Of a DNA stretch of 52,255 nucleotides, positions 2,057 to 49,007 are shown one piece after another (position 1 is the stretch's first letter; every line of letters begins with the position of its first letter). The translations under genes were made by a program, and so were the position numbers. Below the pieces are notes generated by a model that worked only from the letters and a program-made list of their open reading frames with translations, had not been told where the DNA came from and ran no database searches. This stretch comes from a virus: positions 1 through 52,255 of IMG/VR virus record IMGVR_UViG_3300025099_000030. One strand, given 5' to 3'.

Positions 2057-3655
2057 ATGGCAATACAATTCGGATCGCCTAAAGTAGTTAAAGAGCTTAG
2101 CTTCAGTACAGATGCTAAGCAAAAACTAATAGACGGCATTAATAAACTAGCAAAAGCAGTGGGTAGTACACTCGGCGCATCAGGAAGAACAGTAGTTCTT
2201 GAAGATGACTTTGGCAACCCACACGTCACTAAAGACGGGGTTACTGTAGCAAACTACATTAATTTAGAAGACTCAGTAGAAAACCTAGGTGTTACTATGC
2301 TTAAGCAAGCTTCTCGCCAAACTGCGTCTAAAGCAGGTGATGGCACAACAACCTCAACAGTATTAGCGCAAGCTATAATTCACAACTACTTTAATCAAAA
2401 GGGAGAAGAATATTCTTTTAGAGATATTAAAAATGGTATTTCAGCTTTTGCAAAGCATACTATAAAAGAATTAGAAAAAAGAAGTGTTCCCGTTGATGAT
2501 AAAAGATTAAACCAAGTTTCTAGAATATCAGCCAATAATGACACTGAGCTTGGTGACTTTATAGCGGAAGCATTTAAATCCGCGGGAGATAACGGAGTAG
2601 TTACAATGGAAACATCTCCTAGCAACGAAACGTACATAGATGTAGTAGATGGAACACATATTAATGCTACATCAAAAAGTATACACTTCTATACTAATAG
2701 AGAAAAAGAAGTAAGTGAACTGGATAAACCATTAGTATTCTTATGTGCATCCGAGGTAAACAATATTAGAAGAATACAAACAATACTTGAGCATGCGATC
2801 AAGTCCAACAGGTCGTTATTGCTTATTGCCCCTTGCGAACAGCAGGTAGTGTCAGCTTTAGCAATGAATCACGTAAAGGGCAATATTAAGTGTAATATCA
2901 TAGATCCTCCGTCGTTTGGGCTGAAGCGTAAGGACATACTAGATGATATTGCCCTTCTAACGGGTGCAACTGTTATTGATGAGAACTTAGGTGACTCACT
3001 GGATAACATCACCCCAGAAGTGTTAGGACAGGCCGATAAGGCTATCATAGATAATGACGGTACTACTCTTGCTATAAAAGAAGTATCACAAGAAGTTACA
3101 GAACGCGTAGATTATTTAAAAGCGCAGTTAGATGAAGAAGAGCACCATGTAATGCGCCCTCATATTGAAAACAGATTGGCAATATTGTCAGGCGGAGTTT
3201 CTATAGTATATGTAGGCGGCGATACAGATGTTGAAGTTTCAGAAAAGAAAGATAGAGTTGACGATGCTATACACGCCGTTAGAGCCGCAAAGAAGGAAGG
3301 CATACTTCCAGGTGGGGGTTCAGCACTAGTGCATACGGCAAACTCTGACTGGCAAATGAAACTTAACCCCGGTGAGCTTAAAGGTGTAAGTATATTGAAA
3401 CAATCTTTATACGCACCTTTTTTACTTATACTTAGTAATGCAGGACTAGATTCTACAAAGTATACTGAGCTAGGCAAATGGGGAAGTGGGGTAGACGTTA
3501 TAGATGGCAAAATCAAAGACATGCGCAAAGCAGGTATTATTGATCCTCTTCTTGTAACCAAGTCGGCACTTCAAAATGCTATATCTGTAGCTACTACTAT
3601 TCTTTCAACTGATTGTGTAATTTCAAATGTAAGAGAAGGTGAAAGCAATAGGTAG
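2057..3655 (+). CDS. groEL: Phage-encoded group I chaperonin (GroEL/Cpn60)
   Basis: The 532-residue protein aligns by eye with GroEL over its full length. The equatorial domain keeps the ATP-site motifs VTKDGVTVA (D60, equivalent to D52 of E. coli) and AGDGTTTSTVLAQAI (D95, equivalent to D87). VDDAIHAVRAAKKEGILPGGG carries D403, equivalent to catalytic D398. The apical domain lies at about residues 195-375. The usual substrate-binding RGYLSPYF segment is replaced by a different sequence around NATSKSIHFYTN. The C-terminus follows IDPLLVTKSALQNAISVA but lacks the GGM-repeat tail. It should form a ring that folds proteins using ATP; likely clients are large phage structural proteins. It precedes a co-chaperonin gene with a 17-base overlap, the reverse of the bacterial groES-groEL order. 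All catalytic aspartates are present, so it is probably active. Confidence 0.95.
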   Translation: MAIQFGSPKVVKELSFSTDAKQKLIDGINKLAKAVGSTLGASGRTVVLEDDFGNPHVTKDGVTVANYINLEDSVENLGVTMLKQASRQTASKAGDGTTTSTVLAQAIIHNYFNQKGEEYSFRDIKNGISAFAKHTIKELEKRSVPVDDKRLNQVSRISANNDTELGDFIAEAFKSAGDNGVVTMETSPSNETYIDVVDGTHINATSKSIHFYTNREKEVSELDKPLVFLCASEVNNIRRIQTILEHAIKSNRSLLLIAPCEQQVVSALAMNHVKGNIKCNIIDPPSFGLKRKDILDDIALLTGATVIDENLGDSLDNITPEVLGQADKAIIDNDGTTLAIKEVSQEVTERVDYLKAQLDEEEHHVMRPHIENRLAILSGGVSIVYVGGDTDVEVSEKKDRVDDAIHAVRAAKKEGILPGGGSALVHTANSDWQMKLNPGELKGVSILKQSLYAPFLLILSNAGLDSTKYTELGKWGSGVDVIDGKIKDMRKAGIIDPLLVTKSALQNAISVATTILSTDCVISNVREGESNR

Positions 3656-3899
3656 ATACATTATTATCTCTGAGATAAAAGAAGATATAAAGAAAACAGA
3701 CGGTGGGCTGCTACTTGCAGAAAACCACCGCGAAGATATAAGATACCGTACTGCAGATGTTATTTCTGTAGGAACAACGGTAGAGGGTGTAAATATAGAT
3801 GACAAAATATATTATGACAGGCATGCTGGACATAATATAGAAATTGGTAAAGATATTTATAAAGTTATACAAGAGCAAGATGTTATAATAGTATTGTAA
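3639..3899 (+). CDS. groES: Small co-chaperonin, GroES-like
   Basis: The 86-residue product has the GroES layout: an N-terminal strand (AIGRYIIISEI), a mobile-loop region with DGGLLLAEN (residues 21-29, matching the AGGIVL segment that docks on GroEL), a strand TADVISVGTTV, and a C-terminal half with DDKIYY and a final DVIIVL strand. It is slightly shorter than E. coli GroES (97 residues). The gene overlaps the end of groEL by 17 bases and is followed by a TAATG junction, so it is almost certainly co-translated. It should cap the phage chaperonin, the host GroEL, or both. Confidence 0.85.
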   Translation: MKAIGRYIIISEIKEDIKKTDGGLLLAENHREDIRYRTADVISVGTTVEGVNIDDKIYYDRHAGHNIEIGKDIYKVIQEQDVIIVL

Positions 3900-4345
3900 T
3901 GGACAGAAGCGATTTTTTAGAGCGAGGCGAACTAAAAGTTGACTTTCTTAAATATTACAGGCTTGTGTCTCGCTGGGCTTGTAAAGAAAACAATATATCA
4001 ATATCAGATTTAGAATTGTTATTTTATTTAGATCCTATTAAATACTTTACTATAAAAGACTTTCAAAATGGCACAATGTATTATCATTGGGACAGGCAAC
4101 GTTTTTACAGGTTGCAAAGAGAAGATTGGATTGAAAAGATACATAAAGGTAATGGTCGCTTGGGTGATCATAATAAGTACAAGGTGTCTTTTAAAGGCAA
4201 GAGACTTATTAATAGAATTTACAAAATATTAATAAGTGAAGAAGATATGCCTTTATCCGCCAAACGAGGGTTTGGAAAGCGTGAGAGTTATGTAGATAAA
4301 GTATATGCAAACGCAATAGATAAATTTAACAAAGATAAATTATAA
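3899..4345 (+). CDS. Winged-helix-like protein of unknown function
   Basis: The 148-residue product is mostly helical and basic. A segment from about residue 17 (YYRLVSRWACKENNISISDL) through LELLFYLDPIKYFTIKDF and YHWDRQRFYRLQREDWIEKI to KYKVSFKGKRLINRIYKIL resembles a MarR-like winged helix: two helices, a recognition helix and a beta wing ending in KYKVSFKGK. I recall similar proteins in aquatic Bacteroidota phages, always uncharacterised. It starts within the stop codon of groES and ends immediately before the tail-fibre ATG. It may be a regulator of late genes or a virion DNA-binding protein; the sequence does not decide. Confidence 0.6.
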   Translation: MDRSDFLERGELKVDFLKYYRLVSRWACKENNISISDLELLFYLDPIKYFTIKDFQNGTMYYHWDRQRFYRLQREDWIEKIHKGNGRLGDHNKYKVSFKGKRLINRIYKILISEEDMPLSAKRGFGKRESYVDKVYANAIDKFNKDKL

Positions 4346-13390: not shown

Positions 13391-13978
13391 ATGAAGTCAT
13401 TATACAATTATATTATATCAACAAATGACAGATACAATAATAAAACATCTGTCGGTGGTAAAGAGCTTATATTAAATACTGAAATAACAGAAAGAGATTA
13501 CCAGTTTGTAAATCGAATTGGTATAGTAATAAGCACACCTATAAATATTAAAACCCCCATAAAGAAAGGTGATCAAGTTATAATACATCACAATGTATTT
13601 AGAAGATGGTACGATGTTAAAGGCAATGAAAGAAACTCAGGCAGTTACATAGATGAAGATAGATACTCAGTATCACCTGATCAGCTATTCGCATATAACC
13701 AAAATGGCAAATGGCATTGTTTAAATATGTATTGTTTTGTAGAACCTTTAGAAAACGAAAACATATGGAGCACCGAGAGCGAACAAAAACTTTTAGGAGT
13801 GCTTACATATACTAACGACTATTTAAGCTCGTTAGGATTGTCCTGTGGGGATATTGTGGGCTTTACGCCAGAATCTGAGTATGAATTTAACATAGATGAT
13901 AAAAAATTATATAGAATTTTATCAACGGAAATAACTATCAACTATGGACATAAAAAAGAAACGCAAACTTATTCTTGA
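13391..13978 (+). CDS. Second co-chaperonin-like protein with 1.5 GroES folds
   Basis: The 195-residue product can be read as two GroES-like parts. Residues 1-101 show an N-terminal strand (SLYNYIIST), a mobile-loop-like NKTSVGGKELILN (17-29), a strand NRIGIVISTP, the signature KKGDQVIIHHN (58-68), and a closing SPDQLFAY. Residues 130-186 repeat the second half: LLGVLTYTND, SCGDIVGFTP (151-160), KKLYRILSTEITI. The GD.V segment and the closing strand match the KVGDIVIF ... ESDILAIV pattern of GroES. The second part lacks its own mobile loop. The insert RRWYDVKGNERNSGSYIDE could be an enlarged loop, as in phage T4 gp31. It probably acts with GroEL in head assembly, as it lies just upstream of the packaging and capsid genes. 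The fold assignment is by eye. Confidence 0.65.
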   Translation: MKSLYNYIISTNDRYNNKTSVGGKELILNTEITERDYQFVNRIGIVISTPINIKTPIKKGDQVIIHHNVFRRWYDVKGNERNSGSYIDEDRYSVSPDQLFAYNQNGKWHCLNMYCFVEPLENENIWSTESEQKLLGVLTYTNDYLSSLGLSCGDIVGFTPESEYEFNIDDKKLYRILSTEITINYGHKKETQTYS

Positions 13979-14204
13979 TGCTGCTGAAAATTCAATTGAT
14001 GAATTAATAAAAGTGATGAATAAGAGAATGGATCCAGACGAGCTAGATCCTGAAAAAGTAAAAATATCAGCCTCAGCTTACAGGCTTGCAATGGAAGATG
14101 CTATTGCCCTTTTACAAAGAGTAGAAGAAATAAATGAAATGATGAACGAATCACCTAAGACTGCTAAAGATAGTTTTTATGGTGTAGAAAATAGAGTTAA
14201 GTAA
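13944..14204 (+). CDS. Putative small terminase subunit
   Basis: The 86-residue protein is helical and charged: KKRKLILDAAENSIDELIKV, PEKVKISASAYRLAMEDAIA, LLQRVEEINEMM. It overlaps the preceding gene by 35 bases and its stop overlaps the TerL start (TAATG). The position immediately before the large terminase and the helical makeup fit a small terminase, which binds DNA and recruits TerL. No helix-turn-helix is obvious, so the call rests mainly on gene order. Confidence 0.55.
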   Translation: MDIKKKRKLILDAAENSIDELIKVMNKRMDPDELDPEKVKISASAYRLAMEDAIALLQRVEEINEMMNESPKTAKDSFYGVENRVK

Positions 14205-16441
14205 TGTATAAACAAAATCTATATGCTATACACTCTGCACATTTATCTACTAAAAATGTAAAAAGAAACAATAAGCTAAAAAATTACAAGTACGGTTATA
14301 ATGACGATCTTGACTGCGTAGTGATAAGCAAAGATGGAACTATAGGTGAAATTTTTGAAGTACAAGGATTGCGTATTGCACTTCCTGCAATACCAAAAGA
14401 GGTATATTCAAATAGCGAAAAACCTGAAGATCAAGTTTTTAAGCAAACCTTAAAACCTGCTACGCTATCAAAAATTAAATCAATACATGATTTTCAATTA
14501 TATCCAGATGACATTAAAGAAAAGTATTACGAATATATTAATTCAGAGTTTGATTATCGCAGTGATGGTTACTGGTTTATGTGCAACGGCACAACAACCT
14601 ATATTACAGGAGCGCACTATATGTACCTCAACTGGACAAAAATTGATGTTGGTGCACCAGAGTTCAGACAATCAAACAAAATATTCTTTTATTTTTGGGA
14701 AGCTTGCAAAGCGGATTACAGATGTTATGGAATGTGCTACCTCAAAAATAGACGGAGTGGATTCTCCTTTATGGCAAGCGCAGAAACAGTTAATCAAGCT
14801 ACAATATCAAAAGATGCAAGATTTGGGGTATTATCAAAAAGCGGAGGTGACGCAAAAAAAATGTTTACCGACAAGATTGTACCTATATCGATCAACTACC
14901 CATTCTTCTTTAAACCAATACAAGATGGTATGGAAAGACCTAAAACAGAACTTTCCTATAAAATACCGTCTAAAAGGCTTACAAGAAATTCACTCAAAGC
15001 AACCGATCAAAACGAAGTACAGGTTGGGGAAGGATTGGACACTACAATTGACTGGAAAAACACGGGAGACAACTCATATGACGGTGAAAAACTAAAACTA
15101 TTAGTTCACGATGAATCCGGTAAATGGGAAAAACCTGATAATATATTAAACAACTGGCGTGTTACTAAAACCTGTTTAAGGCTAGGCGCTAAAGTTGTTG
15201 GCAAATGCATGATGGGGTCTACATCAAACGCTCTAGATAAAGGTGGTAATAACTTTAAAAAATTATACAATGATTCAAAAGTTGAAAACCGAAATCGCAA
15301 TGGGCAGACTGCTAGTGGACTATACTCTTTGTTCATACCTATGGAGTGGAACTATGAAGGATTCATCAACAAATATGGATTTCCTGTATTCGATCATCCA
15401 GAAAAACCGATCGAAGGAATTGATGGGGAGCTTATCAGACATGGAGTCATCGATCATTGGGAGAATGAAGCAGATGGACTCAAAGGGAATAATGATGCTT
15501 TAAATGAATTTTATAGGCAATTTCCAAGAAGTGAAAAGCACGCGTTTAGAGATGAAATAGAAAAGTCTTTATTCAATCTAAATAAAATATACGAACAAAT
15601 AGATTTCAACGAAGAAATGACAATGAAGGGTTATGTAACCCGCGGTTCATTTAGCTGGAAAAATGGTGTTAAAGATTCTACAGTAGAATTTTACCCAAAC
15701 AAAACAGGTAGATTTAAATTATCCTGGATTCCGCCTGTTGAAATGCAAAACAATATAATAGTAAAAAACGGTATTAAATACCCAGGCAATAAAGATTTAG
15801 GTGCTTTTGGTTGTGATAGCTATGATATTAGCGGAACTACTGATGGTAGCGGGTCTAATGGTGCTCTTCATGGGCTTACTACATTTAGTATGCTTTCAGA
15901 TGTACCGTCTAGCCAATTCTTTTTAGAATATGTTGCTAGGCCACAAACAGCTGAAATATTTTTTGAAGATGTACTTATGGCAATGATATTTTACGGTATG
16001 CCTATACTTGCTGAAAATAACAAACCTAGATTATTATATCATATTAAAAGAAGGGGCTATAGAGGTTTTTCTATGAATAGACCAGATAGATCCCGCAGAA
16101 AACTATCTATAACAGAAAAAGAATTAGGTGGTATACCTAATACTTCAGAAGATATAAGACAAGCTCATGCAGCCGCAATCGAAAGCTATATTGAAACCCA
16201 TGTTGGGTTAGCGGAAAATGGCGATTATGGCAAAATGTACTTTCAAAGAACATTAGAAGACTGGGCTAAATTTGATATTAATAAAAGAACAAAGTTTGAT
16301 GCATCTATAAGTTCAGGCCTTGCTATAATGGCATGCCAAAGACACTTGTATGCATCTAAAACAACTAGAGAAGTTAAGAAAATAGACTTTGGGTTTTCAA
16401 AATATAATAACCAAGGTTCAAAAAGTCAAATAATACAATAA
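14204..16441 (+). CDS. terL: Terminase large subunit
   Basis: The 745-residue protein has a packaging ATPase domain. MCYLKNRRSGFSFM (residues 177-190) is a variant Walker A loop. LLVHDE (residues 299-304) is Walker B with the catalytic glutamate E304. A C-terminal RNase H-like nuclease region starts at AFGCDSYDISGTTDG, with D538 a probable metal ligand. It cuts concatemeric DNA and pumps it through the portal. A putative TerS precedes it and the portal follows 3 bases after its stop. The length is somewhat above the usual 500-700 residues; the first 120 residues form an extra N-terminal region. Confidence 0.92.
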   Translation: MYKQNLYAIHSAHLSTKNVKRNNKLKNYKYGYNDDLDCVVISKDGTIGEIFEVQGLRIALPAIPKEVYSNSEKPEDQVFKQTLKPATLSKIKSIHDFQLYPDDIKEKYYEYINSEFDYRSDGYWFMCNGTTTYITGAHYMYLNWTKIDVGAPEFRQSNKIFFYFWEACKADYRCYGMCYLKNRRSGFSFMASAETVNQATISKDARFGVLSKSGGDAKKMFTDKIVPISINYPFFFKPIQDGMERPKTELSYKIPSKRLTRNSLKATDQNEVQVGEGLDTTIDWKNTGDNSYDGEKLKLLVHDESGKWEKPDNILNNWRVTKTCLRLGAKVVGKCMMGSTSNALDKGGNNFKKLYNDSKVENRNRNGQTASGLYSLFIPMEWNYEGFINKYGFPVFDHPEKPIEGIDGELIRHGVIDHWENEADGLKGNNDALNEFYRQFPRSEKHAFRDEIEKSLFNLNKIYEQIDFNEEMTMKGYVTRGSFSWKNGVKDSTVEFYPNKTGRFKLSWIPPVEMQNNIIVKNGIKYPGNKDLGAFGCDSYDISGTTDGSGSNGALHGLTTFSMLSDVPSSQFFLEYVARPQTAEIFFEDVLMAMIFYGMPILAENNKPRLLYHIKRRGYRGFSMNRPDRSRRKLSITEKELGGIPNTSEDIRQAHAAAIESYIETHVGLAENGDYGKMYFQRTLEDWAKFDINKRTKFDASISSGLAIMACQRHLYASKTTREVKKIDFGFSKYNNQGSKSQIIQ

Positions 16442-33691: not shown

Positions 33692-35673
33692 TGAGAGACT
33701 TATTAAAATACGGACTGATAGCATCAGCGGGGCAGCCTAGAAGCTTAACAGGTGAAGCTTTAATCGGATTAGGTGCTTTGCTTTCTCAAATGGATTTTAA
33801 GTTAAGCAAAGATGAAGAAAAATCTGATGATATTGAAATAACAGATGAGCCAACTGAAGAGTATTTAAAATATAAAATATTCGGGGATGTTGATCAAAAA
33901 GCTGAGGATAAAAAAGTTCAGAAAAAGTATGATGATGCAATGGCTTTTGATCCTAATTCAGTTCAAGTTGAAGATCCATTTCAATATGATAAAAGCGATT
34001 TTGGCATTATGACACCCCCAGAACAAGTTGTTCAAGATTCAAATAACGATGGAAGCGAAGATACATTTATTAATTTAGAAGAAATTAAGCAGGAGGCACG
34101 CGATAGAGTTATTAAAGATACCACAGGTAGAGGTACATCTTCAATATCAAGCATGGGTTTAAATACAGAAAGCCAAAAATTTGATGAATTTTTACAACGA
34201 CTTGATAGCTCAGATAAAAAAAATTTTGATGCTCAAAGCGTAATGGATATTATCAATCAACAAGCTTTAATTGATAAAACATTTGGTAAAAAAACTAGCA
34301 CTTTTAATAGGCTAAAACCAGAGGTGTTACAAATATTAGACAGTGCAAGATATAAAAACAAAGGTAAAGACGATACACCTTTGCACAGGGTTGCTCATAT
34401 TACTAATTCACCATACCTTAGAACAGACGATGTTGACTACAGGCAAATGCGCCAAGCTACTGCACCTGGTTATACAGGCGAAATAGGTAAAGCTGCTATT
34501 GAAGGTTATAATTTAGTTATTGATAAATATAACTACGATCAAGCTGTTAAAGCAGATTATGAAGAAGAAATAGAAGACCAAATGGGCTCTTTAAATGTAG
34601 AGGCTGACTTTTTAACTGATCAAGCTAGACAAGACTATTTAGAGCTTTCAATGGGCAAAAAGAAAAAATTAAATGAAGCTTTTAATTCTTATGCCAATGG
34701 TGATATAAGTAAATTAGATTACGAAAATGTAAAAGCTAGTTTAGTTTCAGAATTACAATCTGCTGCTGCTACACGTACTAATATAACTAATTCAATAAAA
34801 GATTTTATTGAAAACAAAGGTACCATTGACACAGAAGCATCTGACCCTGAAATGTTAGATTTTCTTATGACTGGTGAAAAAAGTCCGGAAAGAATATCTA
34901 TAAAAAACATTGATGGTGTTGATTACGTTACAGGAACAACAAGAGGTGGTAGAGGTTTTCAAATACCTACATCGAAAATAGCAAATGGAACTGCTGGTTT
35001 TAGAGTTGTTAAAAAAGCTAGCTTAGCGCCTGTAATATCAGGAGCATTGAAAAATATTAATGCTTACACCTCTACTGTAAAAACAGATTTAGGTTTTGGA
35101 GTTTCAACACCTAATCCTGAAAAAGCAAGAAATATTGGTATTGCGAGTATAAGAACTAATTTAGGTTCAAACGAAGCTGATCTAAGATCTATAATGTCTC
35201 AAATATACGGTGTTAATCATACAGCTTATCAAAACTTTTTAGGTAGTGATCCTACCGCTAATAAAAGTGCAATGCTAGATGATGCTGCTGAATATTTATA
35301 TGATACGCAGGTAGCTGAAAAGTATTTTCCTATGACTAAAACTACTAAGTTTACAACAGAAAGAACAGGTAGTACAACGGCTGGGGAAAGAAAAATAGCT
35401 AAGATAAAAGCAGACTTAGATAAGTTACCACCATTATCTAGTACCACTCTTTCTAATTACGCTTCACAGTTAGATAAAAAAATATACGAATTGAAAGAAG
35501 ATCCTAAAACAGGTAGCTTTTATATAAATGATTTTAAAAATAAAAGAAGAATAAACCTACCATCAGACCCAATTGAGGCAAAAACTGAAATAGCAGGCTA
35601 CGCTGGGGTTACAGGCTATCAAAGCGGACGAACGCAAAATGCAGAAAACTTTAGAACTCAATATAAATACTAA
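33688..35673 (+). CDS. Internal virion protein (ejection protein)
   Basis: The 661-residue product is charged and mostly helical with no transmembrane segment beyond a weak N-terminal one (LIASAGQPRSLTGEALIGLG). It contains an acidic N-terminal part and a region with LNEAFNSYANGDISKLDYEN. Position between a gp14-like protein and a giant ejection protein suggests a gp15-like role in the ejectosome. No enzyme motif was found. It overlaps the previous gene by 4 bases and ends at the start of the next (TAATG). Confidence 0.6.
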   Translation: MMRDLLKYGLIASAGQPRSLTGEALIGLGALLSQMDFKLSKDEEKSDDIEITDEPTEEYLKYKIFGDVDQKAEDKKVQKKYDDAMAFDPNSVQVEDPFQYDKSDFGIMTPPEQVVQDSNNDGSEDTFINLEEIKQEARDRVIKDTTGRGTSSISSMGLNTESQKFDEFLQRLDSSDKKNFDAQSVMDIINQQALIDKTFGKKTSTFNRLKPEVLQILDSARYKNKGKDDTPLHRVAHITNSPYLRTDDVDYRQMRQATAPGYTGEIGKAAIEGYNLVIDKYNYDQAVKADYEEEIEDQMGSLNVEADFLTDQARQDYLELSMGKKKKLNEAFNSYANGDISKLDYENVKASLVSELQSAAATRTNITNSIKDFIENKGTIDTEASDPEMLDFLMTGEKSPERISIKNIDGVDYVTGTTRGGRGFQIPTSKIANGTAGFRVVKKASLAPVISGALKNINAYTSTVKTDLGFGVSTPNPEKARNIGIASIRTNLGSNEADLRSIMSQIYGVNHTAYQNFLGSDPTANKSAMLDDAAEYLYDTQVAEKYFPMTKTTKFTTERTGSTTAGERKIAKIKADLDKLPPLSSTTLSNYASQLDKKIYELKEDPKTGSFYINDFKNKRRINLPSDPIEAKTEIAGYAGVTGYQSGRTQNAENFRTQYKY

Positions 35674-38600
35674 TGCAACAACTTACAGAAGAACAAAGAC
35701 AAAAACTAGACGGTATTGTTCAGCAAATGATCAATAACAGTGAGTCAGAAGCTAATATACAATTTGTTGTGAATGATTTTAAATCTAAATATACGGGAAA
35801 GACGGATGCCACTGCGGGGGAGACTGCGACTGTAGTGGCAGATCAACCAAGCGAATTGGGTTTGCAGTCGGAAAATGGTTTATCGGAGCAACAAGTAGAG
35901 CCTGAGGTTCCAACGTGGCTTGAAGAAACTTTTGGTCAAGATACTTTTGGTGTAGATTTTGCTAGCGATATGTATCGTGCTGTAAAATCAGGATGGAGAC
36001 AATCAAGTGCTGCTGGTGAAATAGCAGATGTTTTTGCAGGCGATGTTTCAGATGAAAAATTAAATGTATATAGAGATAGTATAAAATATATACAAGATAC
36101 AGCTCAGTCTGAAGAAATGCAGAATTACCAGCGCAACGTTCAAAAATATAAAGATGAAGGTGACGGCGGTTTTTTAGCAGGTTTAAAAGCTTTTGTAAAA
36201 AATCCTTCCATAGGGCCTGAAGTTATGTTATCTTCACTATCTCAAATGGTGGGTACTGCTGCGGAAGGCGGTGCGGTATCAGGATTAGTAGCCGGAGGCG
36301 CTGCCACTGGAGCTGCTGTTGGCGCTCCTACTGGTATAGGCGCTGTAGCGGGTGCTGTAGCTGGTGCTCAAGGTTCCGCTATGATGGCTATGGAATCATT
36401 GAATACTTTTAGCGAACTTCTACAGGAAAAGGTAAAAGACAATAACGGTAACTTTGATAACAATGAAGATCTTCGTAAAGTTTTAAACGATGAAGATCAA
36501 ATGAGTGATTTATACCGCAAAGCTATAGGTAGAGGTGTTGCTATTGGCGCAATAGAAGCTCTTTCTGGGGGTATTGCAGGTAAAGTAGGTGCAGTAGCCG
36601 GAAAAGGATTAGGTAAGCTTAAAAAGGCTGGTAGACTAGCCGGCGCAGTAGGCGTTGAAGCTGTGGGCGGGTCTTTAGGTGAAACAGCGGGTATGTTAGC
36701 GGCAGACCAAGAATTAGCTGGTGAAGAAATATTTTTAGAAGGTATAGCTGGTACAGCAATGGCTCCTGTATCTATTGCAGCTCAAACATTTACTGGTAAT
36801 CCACAATATGTAGTAAACGGTAAAAAAACTAAGCAAAACGAAGGCAAAGCAATTATAAAAGATATGGTTGCTAATTCTACAGATGAAGAATTTGCTGGTA
36901 TGCGCGTTAAAGTTAAAAACGATGACAAGCTAGCAGAAGAAGTTCAGAATCGACGTAGAAAAATAATAACAGAAAACAAAGAGGCTGTAAAGAAAAAAAT
37001 TCAGCCTGAAGTTGATTCTGATTTAAAAGCTAAACTTAAATTAAAGCTTAAAAAATCAAAAGCTCAATTAAAAGAAGTGCGAGAAACCGATGGCGATGCC
37101 GCGGCAGAAGCATTTGAAATTCAAATTGATAAATTAGAAAAACAACTTAAGAAAGTTGATGACTATATAGATTTTCAACTTGATGAGCTTAATGAAGATG
37201 AAATGCTAGATCTTATGAATATGGATGATGATATTTCATTATATCAATCTATATTAAATGATCCTAGCTCTTCTGAAACAGCTAAAGAGGCCGCCAAGCA
37301 ACAGCTTGAGGTTCTTAAGTCAGCGCAGCTTTTAACAGTAGCTAATACAGATTCTGCTGATATGGCTAACCCTGAGGGGCCTCAAAAGAAAAAAAATATT
37401 GATCTTTCTAAAAAAACACAAGAAGCATACGAAAAAAAAGGTAAAAATTCTTGGGGTGAGGTTTCTGAATTACAACAGGGGCTAATTAGGTCAATAGCAA
37501 CTTCATTCTGGTCTAAAATAGCACCAGACAAAAGAGTGGGTACTTATGACGATTTTGTAGCCGCTTTAACAACAGGCAAAGGTGGCTTAAGAGATTTAGT
37601 TAGAACATATGATCCGTCAACAGGTGTACCGCTTGCGGCATACTTAGCCAACAAAAAATCAGGATTACGAGTAAGAGCAAACAGACTTGTAAAAGGACTC
37701 GTCAAACAAGACATCGATAAAGATTTAGATAGTAAAGAGGCGTTGTCTCAATACTCAGAAGGAATTGATATTGATAAAATGGATTTAGGTCCCGAGTTTT
37801 TACACCAAAAATTAGGTTTAGGTAAAGAACTTGGCGATTTAACTAACGATGTAGAAGTTGGTTTACAAAAAACAATAGTAGAATTAGAAAAATTAGGCGA
37901 AGTTACTCAAAAGAAAAGACAAGCTGAAGCTGAAAAAGCTTTTAATTCTATATTTACAAATAAATACGATAAAGCTATTAAAAAGTTTATTGGTAGTAAT
38001 ACTAAAAACAACGATAGCTTTAGCAAATTTATAAATAATAATTTTGAAACATTAAAAACAATTGCTTTAGGCAATATTGATTTTCAAAAAGGTAAGGGTA
38101 TTTCAAAACATTGGAATAAATATCCACCGAGTAAACAAGACTTTTTAGATTATTATGAGGCTAAGAATGAACAAGCGTCAACTAGAAATGATAGAAAAAA
38201 TAAACTTGTAAAAGCAATTGAAGCACAGCTTGCCGCAGATGCTAGAAAATCTTATTTTGAGTCAAGACAAGCGGAACAAGAAGCTTTTAACATTGAACAA
38301 CAAATATCATTTCAACAAGCGCCGCAGGAAGTTAAAAAAATTAGAATATTTGACTTTGATGATACATTAGCTAAAAGTAATTCACAAGTGCTATACACGC
38401 TACCTGATGGGACTACTGGAAAGCTAAACGCAACTGAATATGCTAAAAGAGACCAAGAGCTAAAAGATAAAGGAGCTACGTTTGACTTTTCTGAATTTAG
38501 CAAAGTTATAGACGGTAAGAAGGGGCCTTTGTTTGAAGTAGCGCAAAAAATAAATGCCGCTAGAGGTAATGAAGATTTATTTGTTCTAACAGCTAGACCT

Positions 38601-41600
38601 GCAGATTCAGCTGGTCCAATACAAGAATTTTTAAAATTAGCTGGACTAGATTTTAGGAAAGAAAATATTATTGGTTTAGGTGACGGAACTGCGCAGGCTA
38701 AAGCTGATTGGGTGCAAGGCAAAATAAATGAAGGTTATAACGACTTTTATTTTGCAGACGACGCTATTAAGAATGTAGATGCTGTTAAAAATGCACTCGA
38801 CAATGCTGATGTTAAAGGTAAAGTACAGCAGGCTAAGGCGTATCAAGAGGCTGTTGAAGAGATAACTGCCGGAAGTGTTGAAGTTATGCCTGAAGCGCCA
38901 CAAGGAGACTTAGAAGGTCAATTAGACGACTTTAGAGATTTAGCTGAAACTTTAGGATTAGGAAGATTAGAGAGAACCAGCAATGAAATAAGAAAAAAAG
39001 TGCACGAAGGGTTAATGAATTTAGCCAAACAAGGGCGTTTATCTCTAGAGGCATTAGACTGGTTTAAAATGGGGTCAAGGGGGCGTAAAAAAGTTGATGG
39101 GCAAAGAGTTGATATGCCTGCGGGTGGTGGAATTTATTTTAACCAAACAGATCCTACGTATATAGATTTAAAAAACGCTATAATAGCGTCTAATGCTAAA
39201 CCTAATACTAAAATAAAACCATTAGCTGTTACACCAGAAGCTACTACAAAAGGTACTAAAGCATATACAGAAAATCAAAAAAGACAGGCGCAAAATGATA
39301 AAGCTTTTTCTGAATTTATTGGTTTTATTGACGAAATTATGCAAGAAGACGTACTATTAGCGGCTATTTTAATACATGATGCATCCGCAGCTACTGACGG
39401 CATAATAAAAGTTGTTGCTCCTCTGCGATATACAACTAAAAATTTAGAATTTGGCACTGAGGGGACAAAGTACGGTTCGGATTACAAGAAAAATGCCGTA
39501 AGAAACTGGAGAGATGAGCACACTATGACTGCTAGCACCGTTGCTAATTACATTGGTATTGCGGCTAAAAAGGCAAAAAACGGCGCTCGAAGTATATTGC
39601 CTTTAATTAAAAAACAATATTTTAGAACTTTACTTTCTTTAAAATATGACGAAATAGTTGAAAAAGGGGGATTTGCATCTACCATGCAAAAAACTTTTCG
39701 TTTAATTTATTCTAATACACTTGGTCGCTATTTCAATGATAGTACAAATTCTATAATGGGAGGGATGGATCCCACTAATTTAGTTAACATAGAAACAGGG
39801 CAAACAGTTGCAGAAGAGTTTGGCTTTAAAGAAAGAAGTGGTGTTTTATTAAATTTAGAATTAACAGAACAATTTAAAGATAAAACTCCAGATAAAATAC
39901 AATCTAAAATTGAGCTGCAAGAAGACAGTATACCGGATCCTGAATTATCAGGAAATGAAAGAGTAGAGGCTTTATCTGATTTATTGCAATCTGCTTATGG
40001 TACAAATGTATTTAAAACGAAAGACGAAGCTATTGAATATTTAGTAGGGCTTGGGGTTTCAAAACAAAAAGCAGAAGGGTACACTAATCAGAAAGGATTT
40101 AGACTTCCCGGAGCAATATTCATTAATGAAGAAAAAGCTGGTGTTGACACTGCAATGCATGAGTTTACTCACGAATGGGCGGATTTAGTAAATGACAAAG
40201 ATCCAGATTTATTCAATGCAATATATGATAAGCTAAGGGCTCATCCAAGATTTGAATCTGCTATAAAAAGAATGGCTGACTCAGATATATATTCTCTATA
40301 TGAGGTTGATTCATTCAAATACAAGAATGAAGTAATGGCTCATATATTAGGTGAAGAAGGTAAGTCGCTTTACGAATTATTTGAAGGTGATACTGAGGCA
40401 AAAACATTAATTGATAAATTCTTTGATTATGTTAGAGAAGCTTTAGGGTTTGATCCAACAATTAAAAACTTTGCTGATTTAACTGTGGAAGAAGTTACTA
40501 AGCTGGCTGTAAAGGATATATTAGAAGGTAATCCTGCAGCAAACTTTGACAAATTGCAAAACGTTGCTGAAGGTAAATCTTGGTTTCAAAAATCTGAAGC
40601 TAGTATTAGTAAAAGCGCTAAAGCAAAATCTGATCCTATAGTAAGAGCTTTAAATAAATTAAAGTTATCATATAGAGAAAATAAAAATTTAGCACAAGCT
40701 ATAAATGACGCATATACCGAAGTAGAAGGTATGATGGAGTTCATAGACTTTGTTAGGCTTATATCTAAAAATACTAAAGAAGTTCCTGCTGGTAAATCAA
40801 AAATGTTACTCATAGGAAAAGCTGAACTTATTAAAGCCGATAAGATTGCTCAAGAAAGCGCTAAAAAACAAGCTGAGGACAAAGTAAATGAAGAGCAGGC
40901 TTCTAAGCTGCAGTCTATGTTTAGAAGAATAATTTACCAAGCAAAGGGTGAAGGTGCTAAGGCATCAAGATGGTTTATTCCACCTAATGCTGAAGATTTT
41001 AAAGGTTTGCTATACGCATTCTTACCCAAAGGTCAATTAGGCGTTGATGCACGCAAATGGATGGAAAAGAATTTGCTAAAACCATATTCAAATGGTATTG
41101 CTACTCTTGACACTGAAATACTTCATAAGTCTAAAGCTTGGACTGATATGTCTAAAGGTTTTAACTTTGAAGAAAAAGTTGGTGGTACACCATATACTTT
41201 AGGTGATGCTATTAAAGTTTACAATGCACTTAAAGAAGGTGTTGATCCAGGTATTGCTAAGAAAAAACATTTAGATGCGCTTATACACGCTGTAGAAAGT
41301 AATTCTGAAGTATTAGACTTGGCCAACGAAGTTGCTGAATCATTCCCGATTAAACTTGAATCAGGTTGGCAAACAAGAGCGTTTGCTAAAGAGATTTATG
41401 ATTCTATTAATAATGGTGCACGTAAAAGACATCTTGAAACATTTAGTAATAATGTTGATGCTGTATTTACAGACGCAACACTTGATTTAATTGCAGACCA
41501 ATACGGTGAAAAATATAGACAAGCAATAGTATCTACGCTACGTAGAATGAAAAGCGGTAGAAATAGAGTGTCTACTGATGCTAATGCAAATGTTTATATG

Positions 41601-43148
41601 AACTGGTTAAATAGAGCAGTTGGAACAACAATGTTCTTAAATACTCGTTCTGCTGTATTGCAGTTACTATCTACATTAAACTTTATAGGTAAGCCTGGTA
41701 ATAATATATTCCAAGCTACTGCAGCATTTGCAAATCAAAAGCAATGGAAGGCAGACTATAATAAACTATGGAATAGTGATTATTTAGCTAATAGGCGAGA
41801 TGGCGCCAAGTTCGATGTATTAGCAGATGAAATTGCAGAAGGACCACAAGGATTAAATAAAATACTTAAGTTTGGTTTCTTGCCAACAAGATATGCGGAT
41901 AGCTTTGCTATTGCTCTTGGAGGTGCTGCATACTATAGAAATAGAGTTAACATGCTAATGAAGGAAGGAATGAGTGAGGCCGATGCCGAAGCTCAGGCTA
42001 TGATTGATTGGAGAGCTACTGCTGAAGAATCTCAGCAATCTTCTGATCCATCTAAAATTTCTGAAATACAAGCATCGTCAATTGGTAAAATAATATATGC
42101 TTTTGCTAACACACCGTTTCAGTATGCAAGGATAACAAAAAGAAAGTTACAAGATATTTCGTCTGGTAGATCTGCAGCGGCTGGTACTATGAGAACAGAT
42201 ATGCAATCTATATTGTATTATTCTGTTGGCCAAGCTATAATGTTTAATGCATTGCAAAGCGGCTTAGTAGCTTTACTTAATTCTAATGATGAAGAAGACG
42301 AAGAGTTAAAAGATGAAAAATATGCATTAATGTTAGAGCGTACTTTAACTTCTTTTGCTAAGTCTACAGGTAATCCCGGCGCTGTTGCATCAACTTTATA
42401 TGCAATGATGAAAGAAGGTTATATGCAGCAGACTGGTAAGAAAAGACCCGACGCTAATGCCTTCGCTATAACAGCTACATCTATATCTCCACCTTTGAAT
42501 TCTAAGATTAGAGATTTAGCCGGCGCTTATAGAGCTTTTAATAAAATAGAAGAGGGTGATACATTTACGCCTTCTTTAGATAATGAGGCTTTAACTATGG
42601 CAGGTGAAGTTGCATCATTTGGCGGTGTACCTTTGGATAGAGTAATAAGGAAAGCAAGACATTTAGCAGCAATTAAAAATGAAGAAGCCGAGTTATGGCA
42701 GAAGATTTGGATGCTTGCTGGGTGGAGTAGTTGGGAGCTTGGTGTTAAGGAAAGTAAAGACACTGAGTTTAAAGCTATAGATTTTAAAGATGTAGATTTT
42801 AAAGAAGTAGAGTTTAAAGAGTCTGCATTTAAAAAGTTAGAAGAAGGCATAGCCGGAAGAGCAAACAAAGATGGCACTATAGAGATAGACCCCAACCTAT
42901 CTCCTGTTGAACGTGAAAAAACTATTGCCCACGAAAAACAACACATAAAAGACATGAAAGCTGGTAAGCTAAATTATGACGATAATTATGTATATTGGAA
43001 CAATAGCAAGCACGAGCGTAAAAATGGCAAGATTATTTATAAAGGGAAATCTTATATAGAGGGCCATCCTAGTTTACCTTGGGAAAAGAAGGCATATAAT
43101 GCTGAACCGAGTACCAAAGATATTAAGCGTAAAAAATTATATGCTTAA
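35673..43148 (+). CDS. Giant multidomain ejection/polyvalent protein (HAD-like, two zincin motifs)
   Basis: The 2491-residue protein is the last gene of the late block. Residues about 190-245 and 286-340 are glycine/alanine-rich hydrophobic helices that could insert in membrane. About 446-510 is charged coiled coil. About 625-676 includes GLRDLVRTYDPSTGVPLAAY, which recalls sigma region 2. About 890-1045 is a HAD-like domain with IFDFDDTLA (D894, D896), VLTARP and YFADDAIKNV. HEFTH at 1496-1500 is a zinc-peptidase motif. About 1750-2200 resembles conserved C-terminal regions of phage polyvalent proteins. Short FK-repeats follow at about 2365-2388, and a second zincin HEKQH lies at 2420-2424. 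It occupies the T7 gp16 position but is nearly twice its length. It is probably packaged in the head, ejected into the host, and may act on host proteins or cell wall. Confidence 0.7.
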   Translation: MQQLTEEQRQKLDGIVQQMINNSESEANIQFVVNDFKSKYTGKTDATAGETATVVADQPSELGLQSENGLSEQQVEPEVPTWLEETFGQDTFGVDFASDMYRAVKSGWRQSSAAGEIADVFAGDVSDEKLNVYRDSIKYIQDTAQSEEMQNYQRNVQKYKDEGDGGFLAGLKAFVKNPSIGPEVMLSSLSQMVGTAAEGGAVSGLVAGGAATGAAVGAPTGIGAVAGAVAGAQGSAMMAMESLNTFSELLQEKVKDNNGNFDNNEDLRKVLNDEDQMSDLYRKAIGRGVAIGAIEALSGGIAGKVGAVAGKGLGKLKKAGRLAGAVGVEAVGGSLGETAGMLAADQELAGEEIFLEGIAGTAMAPVSIAAQTFTGNPQYVVNGKKTKQNEGKAIIKDMVANSTDEEFAGMRVKVKNDDKLAEEVQNRRRKIITENKEAVKKKIQPEVDSDLKAKLKLKLKKSKAQLKEVRETDGDAAAEAFEIQIDKLEKQLKKVDDYIDFQLDELNEDEMLDLMNMDDDISLYQSILNDPSSSETAKEAAKQQLEVLKSAQLLTVANTDSADMANPEGPQKKKNIDLSKKTQEAYEKKGKNSWGEVSELQQGLIRSIATSFWSKIAPDKRVGTYDDFVAALTTGKGGLRDLVRTYDPSTGVPLAAYLANKKSGLRVRANRLVKGLVKQDIDKDLDSKEALSQYSEGIDIDKMDLGPEFLHQKLGLGKELGDLTNDVEVGLQKTIVELEKLGEVTQKKRQAEAEKAFNSIFTNKYDKAIKKFIGSNTKNNDSFSKFINNNFETLKTIALGNIDFQKGKGISKHWNKYPPSKQDFLDYYEAKNEQASTRNDRKNKLVKAIEAQLAADARKSYFESRQAEQEAFNIEQQISFQQAPQEVKKIRIFDFDDTLAKSNSQVLYTLPDGTTGKLNATEYAKRDQELKDKGATFDFSEFSKVIDGKKGPLFEVAQKINAARGNEDLFVLTARPADSAGPIQEFLKLAGLDFRKENIIGLGDGTAQAKADWVQGKINEGYNDFYFADDAIKNVDAVKNALDNADVKGKVQQAKAYQEAVEEITAGSVEVMPEAPQGDLEGQLDDFRDLAETLGLGRLERTSNEIRKKVHEGLMNLAKQGRLSLEALDWFKMGSRGRKKVDGQRVDMPAGGGIYFNQTDPTYIDLKNAIIASNAKPNTKIKPLAVTPEATTKGTKAYTENQKRQAQNDKAFSEFIGFIDEIMQEDVLLAAILIHDASAATDGIIKVVAPLRYTTKNLEFGTEGTKYGSDYKKNAVRNWRDEHTMTASTVANYIGIAAKKAKNGARSILPLIKKQYFRTLLSLKYDEIVEKGGFASTMQKTFRLIYSNTLGRYFNDSTNSIMGGMDPTNLVNIETGQTVAEEFGFKERSGVLLNLELTEQFKDKTPDKIQSKIELQEDSIPDPELSGNERVEALSDLLQSAYGTNVFKTKDEAIEYLVGLGVSKQKAEGYTNQKGFRLPGAIFINEEKAGVDTAMHEFTHEWADLVNDKDPDLFNAIYDKLRAHPRFESAIKRMADSDIYSLYEVDSFKYKNEVMAHILGEEGKSLYELFEGDTEAKTLIDKFFDYVREALGFDPTIKNFADLTVEEVTKLAVKDILEGNPAANFDKLQNVAEGKSWFQKSEASISKSAKAKSDPIVRALNKLKLSYRENKNLAQAINDAYTEVEGMMEFIDFVRLISKNTKEVPAGKSKMLLIGKAELIKADKIAQESAKKQAEDKVNEEQASKLQSMFRRIIYQAKGEGAKASRWFIPPNAEDFKGLLYAFLPKGQLGVDARKWMEKNLLKPYSNGIATLDTEILHKSKAWTDMSKGFNFEEKVGGTPYTLGDAIKVYNALKEGVDPGIAKKKHLDALIHAVESNSEVLDLANEVAESFPIKLESGWQTRAFAKEIYDSINNGARKRHLETFSNNVDAVFTDATLDLIADQYGEKYRQAIVSTLRRMKSGRNRVSTDANANVYMNWLNRAVGTTMFLNTRSAVLQLLSTLNFIGKPGNNIFQATAAFANQKQWKADYNKLWNSDYLANRRDGAKFDVLADEIAEGPQGLNKILKFGFLPTRYADSFAIALGGAAYYRNRVNMLMKEGMSEADAEAQAMIDWRATAEESQQSSDPSKISEIQASSIGKIIYAFANTPFQYARITKRKLQDISSGRSAAAGTMRTDMQSILYYSVGQAIMFNALQSGLVALLNSNDEEDEELKDEKYALMLERTLTSFAKSTGNPGAVASTLYAMMKEGYMQQTGKKRPDANAFAITATSISPPLNSKIRDLAGAYRAFNKIEEGDTFTPSLDNEALTMAGEVASFGGVPLDRVIRKARHLAAIKNEEAELWQKIWMLAGWSSWELGVKESKDTEFKAIDFKDVDFKEVEFKESAFKKLEEGIAGRANKDGTIEIDPNLSPVEREKTIAHEKQHIKDMKAGKLNYDDNYVYWNNSKHERKNGKIIYKGKSYIEGHPSLPWEKKAYNAEPSTKDIKRKKLYA
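42766..42840 (+). repeat. Short in-frame FK repeats near the end of the giant ejection gene
   Basis: Five near-tandem 15-base units encode EFKAI, DFKDV, DFKEV, EFKES and AFKKL. Each has a TTTAAA core. They resemble pentapeptide-like repeats and join the polyvalent region to the C-terminal zincin motif, probably as a linker. Confidence 0.75.
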
Positions 43149-43400: not shown

Positions 43401-45143
43401 TTATCCATCGCAGCTTAAACAATCAGGATCCATAGCTGCTGCCGCTATATCTCCTCTTAATACAGATTCTGTACGTGTATAATACAAAGTTTTAATACCT
43501 CTTTTCCATGCTTCAATATGCACCTGGTTTAACCACCTAGGCGGTGCTTCTGATGGGAACGCAAGGTTTAAACTTACAGACTGGTCTATATAGTCTTGTC
43601 TTATACCTGCCTGCTTAACTAATTCCAGTTGATTTATTTCTTTAAATGTTTTAAATACATTGATTACTGGCTCTCCCCCTTCTTGGTTAAGTCTTCCTCC
43701 GTGATCGTAATACCATCCGTTAAGTTGTTTAATTCCTTGAACGGATCCACCATCTTCCAAAATTTTATCCCAAGTTTCTTTATTATTGATTCCAACTTTT
43801 CTTAATACTTTTTCTAATTCCTTATTTCTTCTAATAAATGTTCCCTTAGCACTTTGCTCGGTAAACACATTCGCAGCCCAAGGCTCAATGCCTGGTGAAA
43901 CATTGCCTGCAAGTTTTGAATTCGATACAGTTGGTGCAATAGCTCTTAAATGGGTATTACGGAAGCCTGTACCGGCACACCATAGCGGTTCGCCATAAGT
44001 TTCAGCTAATGCTCTTGACGCTCTTTCTGTTTCAATTTTTATTTTTGAAAATATTTCTCTCGTTTTAAATTGAGCTAGTAAGCCTTCAAATGCAATTCCA
44101 TTCTTCTGCAATAAACTATGCCAACCTAAAACCCCTAGGCCCAAGGCTCTGCCCTTTACAGCTGATCTCACAGAATTCTCGAACCCCCTCATGTTCTTCG
44201 CTCTCTGAATGAATTCTTCCAGGACACCGTCCAGGAACCAAGTAGCATCGTACACCAGATTTGTATTTTTCCATTCGTCGTATTTTTCTAAGTTAAGAGA
44301 TGATAAGCAACAAACAAAGCTATGTGATTCATCTGTATGTAATACTATTTCGCTACAGATGTTCGTCATATGTACTTTTAAGCTATTTTTCTTATATGCT
44401 TCTGGATTAGCTTTATTCGTGTTGCCTTTAAAAAGGATATATGGTTCACCAGTTGCTTTACGCTTTTGGAGTAGCTTTGCCCATCTTTGCCGAGCGTCTT
44501 GATCTCCCGCTTCAAGTCTTCGCATAAACTTATCGCCAACGACAGCACACTGGTGTAGGTTAAGAGATTGTCTATTGACGTCTCCTTTAGGTTCCCTAAT
44601 TTCAATCCAATCGAGGAAGTCATCGTGTTCAATATTAATATTAACTGATGCAGCTCCTCTTCTAACGCTACCTTGGTTGGTTGCGAGTATAGTTGAGTCG
44701 TAGATTTTGCAAAAAGGGACAACGCCGTCTGAAGTTCCATTACCTGTTATTTTAGCACCGGCAGGACGAATCATATTAATTCCGATACCAACACCCCCAC
44801 CGTGTTTTGCTAGTAACATCATTTCTAAATTTTTACCACCAATGTCTTGTATGCTGTCAGCAACATCAATGCCAAAACAACTGATAGGTAAACCTCTGTC
44901 TGTACCTGTATTAGACAGCACAGGAGACGCTAAACATAACCAACCCTGCCATATATACTCAAAAAACTTTTCGGCTAGTTCTGGCTTGTATAAACGCTTA
45001 GCTACTGCGTTGCAGACTCTCCAGTAGGCATCTTTGGGGGATTCTCCGTTAACCAAATATCCCCCGGATATAGTCTTTTTGTAAACTTCGGTATCTCCCC
45101 AGGTCGGGTAGTCTTCACCTTTTTTCCATTCATTATTCCACAT
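43401..45143 (-). CDS. nrdA: Class I ribonucleotide reductase, large subunit
   Basis: The 580-residue enzyme reduces ribonucleotides to deoxyribonucleotides. Active-site residues are visible: C89 in GLPISCF, N261/C263/E265 in NICSE, C278 in the FVCCLSSLNL segment, the electron-transfer tyrosines Y554-Y555 in LYYTRTES, and the C-terminal CLSC pair (C575, C578). It is shorter than E. coli NrdA (761 residues) and lacks the N-terminal ATP cone, so it should not be inhibited by dATP through that site. The small subunit is encoded upstream, separated by two envelope-type genes. The ATG overlaps the stop of the preceding membrane protein (TAATG). Confidence 0.95.
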   Translation of the reverse strand: MWNNEWKKGEDYPTWGDTEVYKKTISGGYLVNGESPKDAYWRVCNAVAKRLYKPELAEKFFEYIWQGWLCLASPVLSNTGTDRGLPISCFGIDVADSIQDIGGKNLEMMLLAKHGGGVGIGINMIRPAGAKITGNGTSDGVVPFCKIYDSTILATNQGSVRRGAASVNINIEHDDFLDWIEIREPKGDVNRQSLNLHQCAVVGDKFMRRLEAGDQDARQRWAKLLQKRKATGEPYILFKGNTNKANPEAYKKNSLKVHMTNICSEIVLHTDESHSFVCCLSSLNLEKYDEWKNTNLVYDATWFLDGVLEEFIQRAKNMRGFENSVRSAVKGRALGLGVLGWHSLLQKNGIAFEGLLAQFKTREIFSKIKIETERASRALAETYGEPLWCAGTGFRNTHLRAIAPTVSNSKLAGNVSPGIEPWAANVFTEQSAKGTFIRRNKELEKVLRKVGINNKETWDKILEDGGSVQGIKQLNGWYYDHGGRLNQEGGEPVINVFKTFKEINQLELVKQAGIRQDYIDQSVSLNLAFPSEAPPRWLNQVHIEAWKRGIKTLYYTRTESVLRGDIAAAAMDPDCLSCDG

Positions 45144-45415
45144 TATAAATTGTATAAATAAATTAAATAACCTAACACTAGGTTTATATTAATAATAACT
45201 AAATTCCATTGTTTAGCAATCCAAACCTGTGGCGTTAATAATAATCCACCAGTTATATACGTAAACGCACCAAGATTGCCATAGCCAAGTAAATAAGGTG
45301 ACAACATTATAAACGCAGACCCCATGTAGCCTAGTCTAGAAGATAATCTTTCAGCGGGAGACAGCTTACGTTCTTTGACCAAAGATTTAAGCCATTGTCT
45401 TTTTACTGAATTCAT
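45143..45415 (-). CDS. Multi-pass small membrane protein (PQ-motif-like)
   Basis: From ATG at 45415 the product has 90 residues. After a basic N-terminus (MNSVKRQWLKSLVKERK) there are about three hydrophobic segments: MGSAFIMLSPYLLGYG, GAFTYITGGLLLTPQVWIAK and VIININLVLGYLIYLYNL. The TPQVW element recalls the PQ motif of half-transporters such as SemiSWEET, but the match is weak. The ATG overlaps the preceding stop by 3 bases (ATGA). An in-frame TTG at 45436 would add 7 residues but is less likely. The position between nrdB and nrdA is odd for a membrane protein; function is unknown. Confidence 0.6.
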   Translation of the reverse strand: MNSVKRQWLKSLVKERKLSPAERLSSRLGYMGSAFIMLSPYLLGYGNLGAFTYITGGLLLTPQVWIAKQWNLVIININLVLGYLIYLYNL

Positions 45416-45732
45416 CTTAGCCTTTGGAATAGCCAAGCTGTAGAAGACCTAGGCTTGCAAACCACCATAGTCTCAAAGCCTAAATAATAACAGAGTTTAT
45501 AATCATCTAAAGTATCATTTCTAATAACTCTTATTTCTTTATTAACTACCTTAATGGTGCCTTTAGCTAAAATTTGTTTTGCTCTATTAGTAAAAATATA
45601 TCGTTCAAAAGAATTATCCTCTTTTATATCAACATATTCATTTGTTCCGCTAACCCATAAACCATGCACAGATGTGTTTTGCGCAAACGTATAGGTACTC
45701 ATCATTAATAATATTCCAAATAAGTATTTCAT
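45412..45732 (-). CDS. Secreted or periplasmic small protein
   Basis: The 106-residue product has a clear signal peptide (MKYLFGILLMMSTYTFA) with probable cleavage after TFA. The mature part is beta-rich: HGLWVSGTNEYVDIKEDNSF, ERYIFTNRAK, KGTIKVVNKEIRVIRND. This resembles small lipocalin-like periplasmic proteins. It sits directly downstream of nrdB in the same operon, although it acts outside the cytoplasm. It may alter the host envelope during infection. No known family is recognised. Confidence 0.65.
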   Translation of the reverse strand: MKYLFGILLMMSTYTFAQNTSVHGLWVSGTNEYVDIKEDNSFERYIFTNRAKQILAKGTIKVVNKEIRVIRNDTLDDYKLCYYLGFETMVVCKPRSSTAWLFQRLR

Positions 45733-45748
45733 TTAATTTTATTTTTAA

Positions 45749-47828: not shown

Positions 47829-48141
47829 TAGTATGATTAGTTGTCCATGTTTTATTTATATTGTAGCCTAATTGATCGGGTGGCCCAGGATCTGGATAAG
47901 CAGAAACAAGTTCAGCATCTACTTCCCAGTCTTTAATGTAACACTCTTCAATCTCTTCACGTAATGACATACGGGCTTTTTCAATATAGTTTACGGCATC
48001 CATAAGTTCTTCTTGTAAATGGTTGAGCCAAGTATCTAGTGGCTGGTCATCATCAAAAAGAGTAACACCATACTTTTTAAAACCTACGTCAGATCGCTTT
48101 TGAATCTTACTTACTACTTGTTGTATAATTTTATCACGCAT
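47809..48141 (-). CDS. MazG-like nucleotide pyrophosphohydrolase
   Basis: The 110-residue product contains KIQKRSDVGFKKYGVTLFDD, followed by LDTWLNHLQEELMDAVNYIE. The KYG.TL ... HL.EELMDA..YIE pattern is typical of small all-alpha NTP pyrophosphohydrolases of the MazG superfamily in phages. The EE..D residues probably bind magnesium. The C-terminal 45 residues are proline-rich and polar. It overlaps the fused MazG gene upstream by 8 bases and the nuclease downstream by 20 bases. It may clean or adjust nucleotide pools. Confidence 0.65.
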   Translation of the reverse strand: MRDKIIQQVVSKIQKRSDVGFKKYGVTLFDDDQPLDTWLNHLQEELMDAVNYIEKARMSLREEIEECYIKDWEVDAELVSAYPDPGPPDQLGYNINKTWTTNHTNETKEK

Positions 48142-48916: not shown

Positions 48917-49007
48917 CTTGTATTGATTTAATTATATTTAAGCTTTTTTCACTAAGGAACTTGCCCATGTAATTATTTTTTTGAAACCAGTATTTATACT
49001 CCAACAT
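48891..49007 (-). CDS. Micro-protein, 38 residues, between thyA and the GIY-YIG/MazG gene
   Basis: ATG at 49007 lies inside the thyA end (14-base overlap) and the TAA at 48891-48893 lies inside the next gene (26-base overlap). The product begins MLEYKYWFQKNNYMGKFLSE and ends in a helical segment IIKSIQDAYKTKQR. It fills what would otherwise be a 77-base gap between genes. An alternative start at 48968 would give 25 residues. Tight packing supports it, but the frame is short. Confidence 0.45.
   Translation of the reverse strand: MLEYKYWFQKNNYMGKFLSEKSLNIIKSIQDAYKTKQR

Follow-up and report, generated by a model that had tools for sequence, protein, structure and literature searches.

The 52,255-base IMG/VR virus record analysed here (the window) belongs to a marine tailed phage and encodes a GroEL, a GroES whose gene overlaps that of GroEL and, at a distance from both, a second co-chaperonin-like protein (ES2) that is predicted to combine two Cpn10 folds in a single chain. 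We consider it quite probable that these three proteins make up a chaperonin system dedicated to the phage, in which GroEL works with a mixed lid of GroES and ES2 on virion proteins during infection of a flavobacterium-like host. GroEL would form the ATP-driven folding chamber, the overlapping groES would supply a conventional Cpn10 lid subunit, and the distant ES2 gene beside the terminase would supply a Cpn20-like subunit with two Cpn10 folds per chain. Together, GroES and ES2 might close the chamber with a mixed seven-domain lid, for example of three ES2 and one GroES, to which each ES2 would contribute one mobile loop per two domains. The genes concerned are the following.

Positions 2057-3655, plus strand: groEL, a group I chaperonin of 532 amino acids with an ATG start
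Positions 3639-3899, plus strand: groES, a single-domain Cpn10 of 86 amino acids with a GTG start
Positions 3899-4345, plus strand: orf148, 148 amino acids, function not assigned (phrog_17028, 2e-11)
Positions 13391-13978, plus strand: ES2, 195 amino acids, predicted tandem GroES fold, Cpn20-like (phrog_13932 'co-chaperonin GroES', 5.7e-25)
Positions 14204-16441, plus strand: terminase large subunit (TerL; phrog_6681, 1e-162), the fixed neighbour of ES2

The groEL product matches the Pfam family Cpn60_TCP1 (PF00118) over domain positions 1-488 of 490 with an E-value of 1.5e-59, and its PHROG match (phrog_5725, 5e-132) is labelled phage GroEL. Its score of 459 bits is below the NCBIfam equivalog cut-off of TIGR02348 (582), while two GroEL subfamily cut-offs are exceeded. 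D52, D87 and D398 of E. coli GroEL align with D60, D95 and D403 of the window, and the original prediction of a complete Cpn60 with its catalytic aspartates was thus confirmed by both the domain match and the alignment. These three residues together with K51, T89-T91 and D495 (E. coli numbering) are conserved without exception, both in the window and in all 18 GroELs that make up the phage clade described below; as far as the alignment tells, the ATP site is intact. An AlphaFold2 model of the protein (pLDDT 79) matches structures of the GroEL-GroES complex with Z-scores of about 42. The gene evolves under purifying selection (dN/dS 0.05-0.10), and a search for a second GroEL across the window's own genome found this single copy.

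The groES product matches the Cpn10 family (PF00166; E-value 1.6e-10, over 2-85) and is labelled phage GroES in PHROGs. Its mobile loop reads GGLLL, and 41 of 49 distinct viral GroES homologues have one or two glycines followed by three hydrophobic residues in this loop. Purifying selection on groES is strong (dN/dS again 0.05-0.10), and groES is directly linked to groEL in every viral relative with room for it. The ORF coordinates bear out the predicted overlap of 17 bases between the two genes. The gene order had been described as the reverse of that in bacterial operons. The reversal is real: groEL precedes groES at 65 viral loci among the relatives, and in the bacteria with the closest GroELs groES comes first at 80 of 80 loci. 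Among phages the order is not exceptional, being shared by the cultured elemo phages and by MW202828, an environmental podovirus; it is thus a trait of the lineage and not peculiar to one contig. The phages phi38:1 and immuto have groES before groEL, and a GroES adjoining GroEL was not found in several Vibrio phages, JM-2012 and EL. In virioplankton, Marine and co-workers (2017) reportedly found a connection between the order of the two genes and the phylogeny of GroEL.

ES2 had escaped the earlier reading of the sequence. Neither Pfam nor NCBIfam contains a match to the window ES2, and its sequence profile found no Cpn10 among PDB chains. Because this profile search came back empty, the proposed fold rests on the predicted structure, on Pfam matches of relatives and on the profile of the second domain. 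AlphaFold2 applied to 19 ES2 homologues yielded a mostly beta model in two parts (pLDDT 74), in which the loop at residues 29-39, the mobile-loop region, is poorly resolved and partly below pLDDT 50. Among 350,542 PDB chains searched with Foldseek, Cpn20 of Chlamydomonas (7ekq_R) was the top match of this model (E-value 1.7e-5), followed by Chaperonin 23 and then by single Cpn10s, and VIA-align superposed ES2 and Cpn20 over 160 residues (Z 10.4, rmsd 4.2). Taken by halves, residues 1-106 match human Hsp10 (Z 7.8) and residues 104-187 several Cpn10s (Z about 7). When compared with a GroES profile by hhalign, domain 2 (approximately residues 107-187) reached a probability of 95% and domain 1 (approximately residues 1-106) only one of 19%, and the second domain of the ES2 homologues in phi19:3 and phi38:1 passed the Pfam cut-off for Cpn10 (PF00166). 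The presence of two Cpn10 folds is thus well supported for domain 2 by profile and relatives, and supported for domain 1 by structure prediction.

The two predicted domains differ in their loops. A hydrophobic tripeptide of the mobile-loop type was sought in each half, as in Cpn20, and was found in domain 1 of ES2 only, where the mobile-loop-like LILN of the window belongs to a motif, L-[IVL]-[LVI]-N, conserved across the group alignment of 136 sequences. Domain 2 has a shortened loop, the compared stretch being 19 residues long in 122 of the 136. ES2 of phi19:3 shows the opposite arrangement, with the mobile-loop-like SLIYIPEDNKE in domain 2 and not in domain 1; in either arrangement there is apparently one mobile loop per two domains. 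ES2 is under purifying selection like groEL and groES (dN/dS 0.05-0.18 across all three genes). One otherwise close relative (G017, locus L106) has its ES2 split by an in-frame stop or a frameshift, perhaps an assembly error. Our claim is that ES2 works like Cpn20, not that it should be classed as a Cpn20.

The genomic position of ES2 is invariable: TerL follows directly in all 163 loci with room for it. Among 22 viral records bearing ES2, GroEL is present in all 13 records of 49 kb or more, and the six that lack GroEL are all shorter than 45 kb, which we read as records cut before the groEL region. GroEL, a single Cpn10 and ES2 also occur together in phi38:1, elemo and MW202828, which are complete or near-complete phages, while all three are absent from Gundel_1. 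The complete genome of phi19:3 encodes a single Cpn10 and ES2, and GroEL is absent. Because phi19:3 has both co-chaperonins without GroEL, the two co-chaperonins represent the wider association, to which GroEL belongs in some lineages. Genes resembling 10-kDa chaperonins lie shortly upstream of the terminase also in two crAss-like phages, namely a 'putative 10kDa chaperonin' in cr111_1 (L302:5816-6226) and a 10-kDa-chaperonin-like gene in cr108_1 (L209:6998-7378), both at a position similar to that of ES2.

Small terminase genes often sit just before TerL, which is exactly where ES2 is always found. GroEL and the single GroES might thus be an ordinary, self-sufficient pair, and ES2 might be a descendant of GroES that has taken up a new task in packaging or in building the head, acting for example as a small terminase subunit or a head-assembly factor would, with no role in capping. 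The strongly conserved motifs of ES2 that are foreign to GroES, such as HHNVFRR, and the phage phi19:3, which keeps ES2 without a phage GroEL, would fit such a change of function. We nevertheless regard it as unlikely, as the hydrophobic mobile-loop-like motif of domain 1 is retained group-wide, even the GroEL-less phi19:3 retains such a motif in domain 2, and every long ES2 contig of the window's group encodes GroEL.

The genome of phi19:3 would also agree with ES2 serving the GroEL of the host, leaving the phage GroEL to the phage GroES only. There is precedent in the co-chaperonins of T4 and RB49, both of which use host GroEL (PMC9598537). For the window's group this seems improbable, because ES2 and phage GroEL always occur together there, and because the apical surface of the phage GroEL has diverged from the host type, which would require two different lids, each fitted to its own chamber.

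We favour a lid shared by GroES and ES2 on the phage GroEL, by analogy with chloroplasts, where Cpn10 and the tandem Cpn20 combine into hetero-oligomeric lids that cover a seven-fold chamber (PMC5780408). By the same analogy ES2 would bind the phage GroEL; that the lid fits is an assumption, as this GroEL differs from that of E. coli at the positions contacting GroES. A further, more tentative suggestion, which we hold with some doubt, is that a lid of two types of subunit, single and tandem Cpn10, arose on a phage GroEL apparently independently of chloroplasts, and that mobile loops on roughly half of its domains create an asymmetric cage tuned to the capsid protein or another virion protein.

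The clients of the system would be proteins of the phage's own virion, above all the capsid protein and further head or tail proteins encoded in the late cluster nearby. In T4, the co-chaperonin gp31 acts in head assembly. As ES2 opens the cluster of terminase, portal and capsid genes, we favour, with T4 gp31 in mind, head proteins, and the ES2 gene is at least as suggestive of a role in head assembly as of one in folding the fibre. The original prediction had placed a giant fibre of 1865 amino acids directly beyond groES and proposed it as a client. Neither suggestion was borne out, as orf148 lies between groES and the fibre, and conservation of the neighbouring genes does not support a special role of the fibre: of 53 relatives with room for it, 30 have a gene of at least 500 amino acids within 3 kb after groES, and the fibre as such can be recognised in 23. 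In cultured relatives, groEL and groES are located away from the structural genes or opposite to them. The fibre is thus a possible client, but not the favoured one. The usual gene after groES is orf148, which follows in most relatives, and a GroEL-GroES-orf148 cassette seems to be conserved among them. Elsewhere in the window, positions 35673-43148 encode a protein of 2491 amino acids in which PHROGs point to a polynucleotide-kinase-like segment at residues 876-1052 and, at residues 2365-2450, to a C-terminus resembling a metalloprotease, and the minus strand (43401-46717 and 48134-51774) encodes ribonucleotide reductase subunits, a MazG-like pyrophosphatase, thymidylate synthase and a primase/helicase.

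The apical segment of GroEL had been noted as unlike that of bacteria, and this was substantiated by six substitutions in the alignment with bacterial GroEL (Y199S, Y203H, L234Q, L259V, V263A and V264M). In all 18 GroELs of the phage clade L234 is replaced by Q and V264 by M, and in 16 of them Y203 is replaced by H and V263 by A; F204 and L237 are retained. The altered positions are substrate- and GroES-binding sites in E. coli GroEL, and their pattern across the clade is one of conserved change and not of decay, in keeping with a narrower set of clients or with a lid adapted to this surface. The GGM tail is missing from the window GroEL, as predicted, and was also not found in any of 14 other phage GroELs examined, likely later acquisitions included; its absence appears to be general to the phage GroELs examined.

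Throughout the phage clade the inter-ring contact R452 and the intersubunit residue R197 are lost, and ring pairing and allostery may differ from E. coli. A group I chaperonin would be expected to form a double-ring 14-mer with ATP-dependent folding; with both arginines lost, this GroEL might behave as a single ring. The OBP chaperonin without the R197-E386 pair and the AR9 chaperonin with it are both single rings (PMC9598537), and for this reason sequence alone cannot settle the number of rings. Both also need no co-chaperonin (PMC9598537), and the window GroEL could be imagined as a chaperonin of this phiEL/OBP/AR9 type, working without a lid and possibly as a single ring, next to a vestigial groES. 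We consider this very improbable in view of the constant linkage of groES to groEL in relatives with room for it and the low dN/dS given above; in addition, phiEL is remote from the window in the tree, and a search next to its GroEL gene revealed no GroES.

In a tree of 78 GroELs, whose deeper joins are unsure owing to long branches, the window GroEL falls into a set of 18 sequences from phages only (SH-aLRT 99) outside all sampled bacteria, with elemo, MW202828 and phi38:1 nearby. One of the outcomes named as refuting the original prediction, a recent acquisition from the host with loss of ATPase residues, was checked for and did not appear, the clade being phage-only and the residues intact. 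A recent capture of a host groESL operon is rejected by the tree and can practically be dismissed: some phage GroELs do look captured (that of DAC19 branches with Paludibacter of the Bacteroidota, and those of four Vibrio phages group with gammaproteobacteria, the pattern that later captures should give), but the window GroEL has only phage sequences in its clade, shares about 40% identity with any of the bacterial GroELs found and has a gene order opposite to that of the bacterial loci. According to the tree the phage-only clade is old, and the groEL/groES pair is ancestral in the window's phage group. Very short phage records that match GroEL, such as OR848861.1 (3,360 bases) and OR851569.1 (1,667 bases), are probably bacterial DNA, so that 279 is somewhat too high a figure for the phage records with a GroEL. 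Homologues of the window TerL in the phage collection come only from phages of Flavobacterium, Cellulophaga, Tenacibaculum and Maribacter and from one environmental podovirus; the host is therefore likely flavobacterium-like. In the work of Nishimura et al. 2017 (PMC5332604), a GroEL related to that of Cellulophaga phages occurs in 36 viral genomes from the sea, all assigned to phages of Bacteroidetes.

Phage-encoded pairs of GroEL and GroES are thus already known in kind, and it is the proposed set of two lid proteins including a tandem co-chaperonin that is unusual. As cited in PMC7185714, Marine et al. 2017 reported virioplankton phages carrying both GroEL and GroES, and the marine viral genomes of Nishimura et al. 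2017 very likely belong to the same marine Bacteroidetes phage group as the window; in the accessible part of that article we found no discussion of the tandem co-chaperonin. Nor did we find a tandem GroES or a Cpn20-like phage protein described in the open-access literature, and databases annotate the tandem co-chaperonin only as GroES or cpn10. Among cultured phages, the Flavobacterium elemo podophages (Elemovirus) share with the window the groEL-then-groES order, a similar order of structural genes and a second 'co-chaperonin GroES' (gp30) directly before TerL, like ES2. Their GroEL, however, is only 40.5% identical to that of the window, and their cassette lies on the strand opposite the structural genes and without an adjoining giant fibre. 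The Cellulophaga phages phi38:1 and phi40:1 (Callevirus) likewise encode GroEL, a single Cpn10 and a tandem ES2 before TerL, but with groES first, one gene in between, a location near DNA polymerase genes and a GroEL 34% identical to that of the window.

Outside this group, the closest counterpart of ES2 is Chlamydomonas Cpn20 (7ekq chain R), which carries two head-to-tail Cpn10 folds in a chain of about 195 residues and works beside a single-domain Cpn10, as we predict for ES2. The two are 13% identical over the aligned residues, and a recognisable hydrophobic mobile-loop motif is present in only one of the two ES2 domains. T4 gp31 is a phage co-chaperonin with a GroES fold like ES2, but it is a single domain, uses the host GroEL and matches one half of ES2 only (Z 6.5). 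The giant phages EL, OBP and AR9 encode GroEL homologues as well, which are distant in sequence from the window GroEL and are reported to work without a co-chaperonin (PMC9598537), whereas the window has a linked groES under selection. The phage group of the window, with genomes of approximately 50-75 kb, would thus keep a complete chaperonin set including a predicted Cpn20-like shape. To our knowledge, this co-chaperonin shape is otherwise known only from chloroplasts and apicoplasts, and the phage chaperonins studied biochemically come from giant phages and were reported to be lid-free. The cultured phages elemo, phi38:1 and the GroEL-less phi19:3 could serve as models both for how lid subunits with an even number of domains fit a seven-fold chamber and for which proteins of the virion depend on a folding machine of the phage's own.
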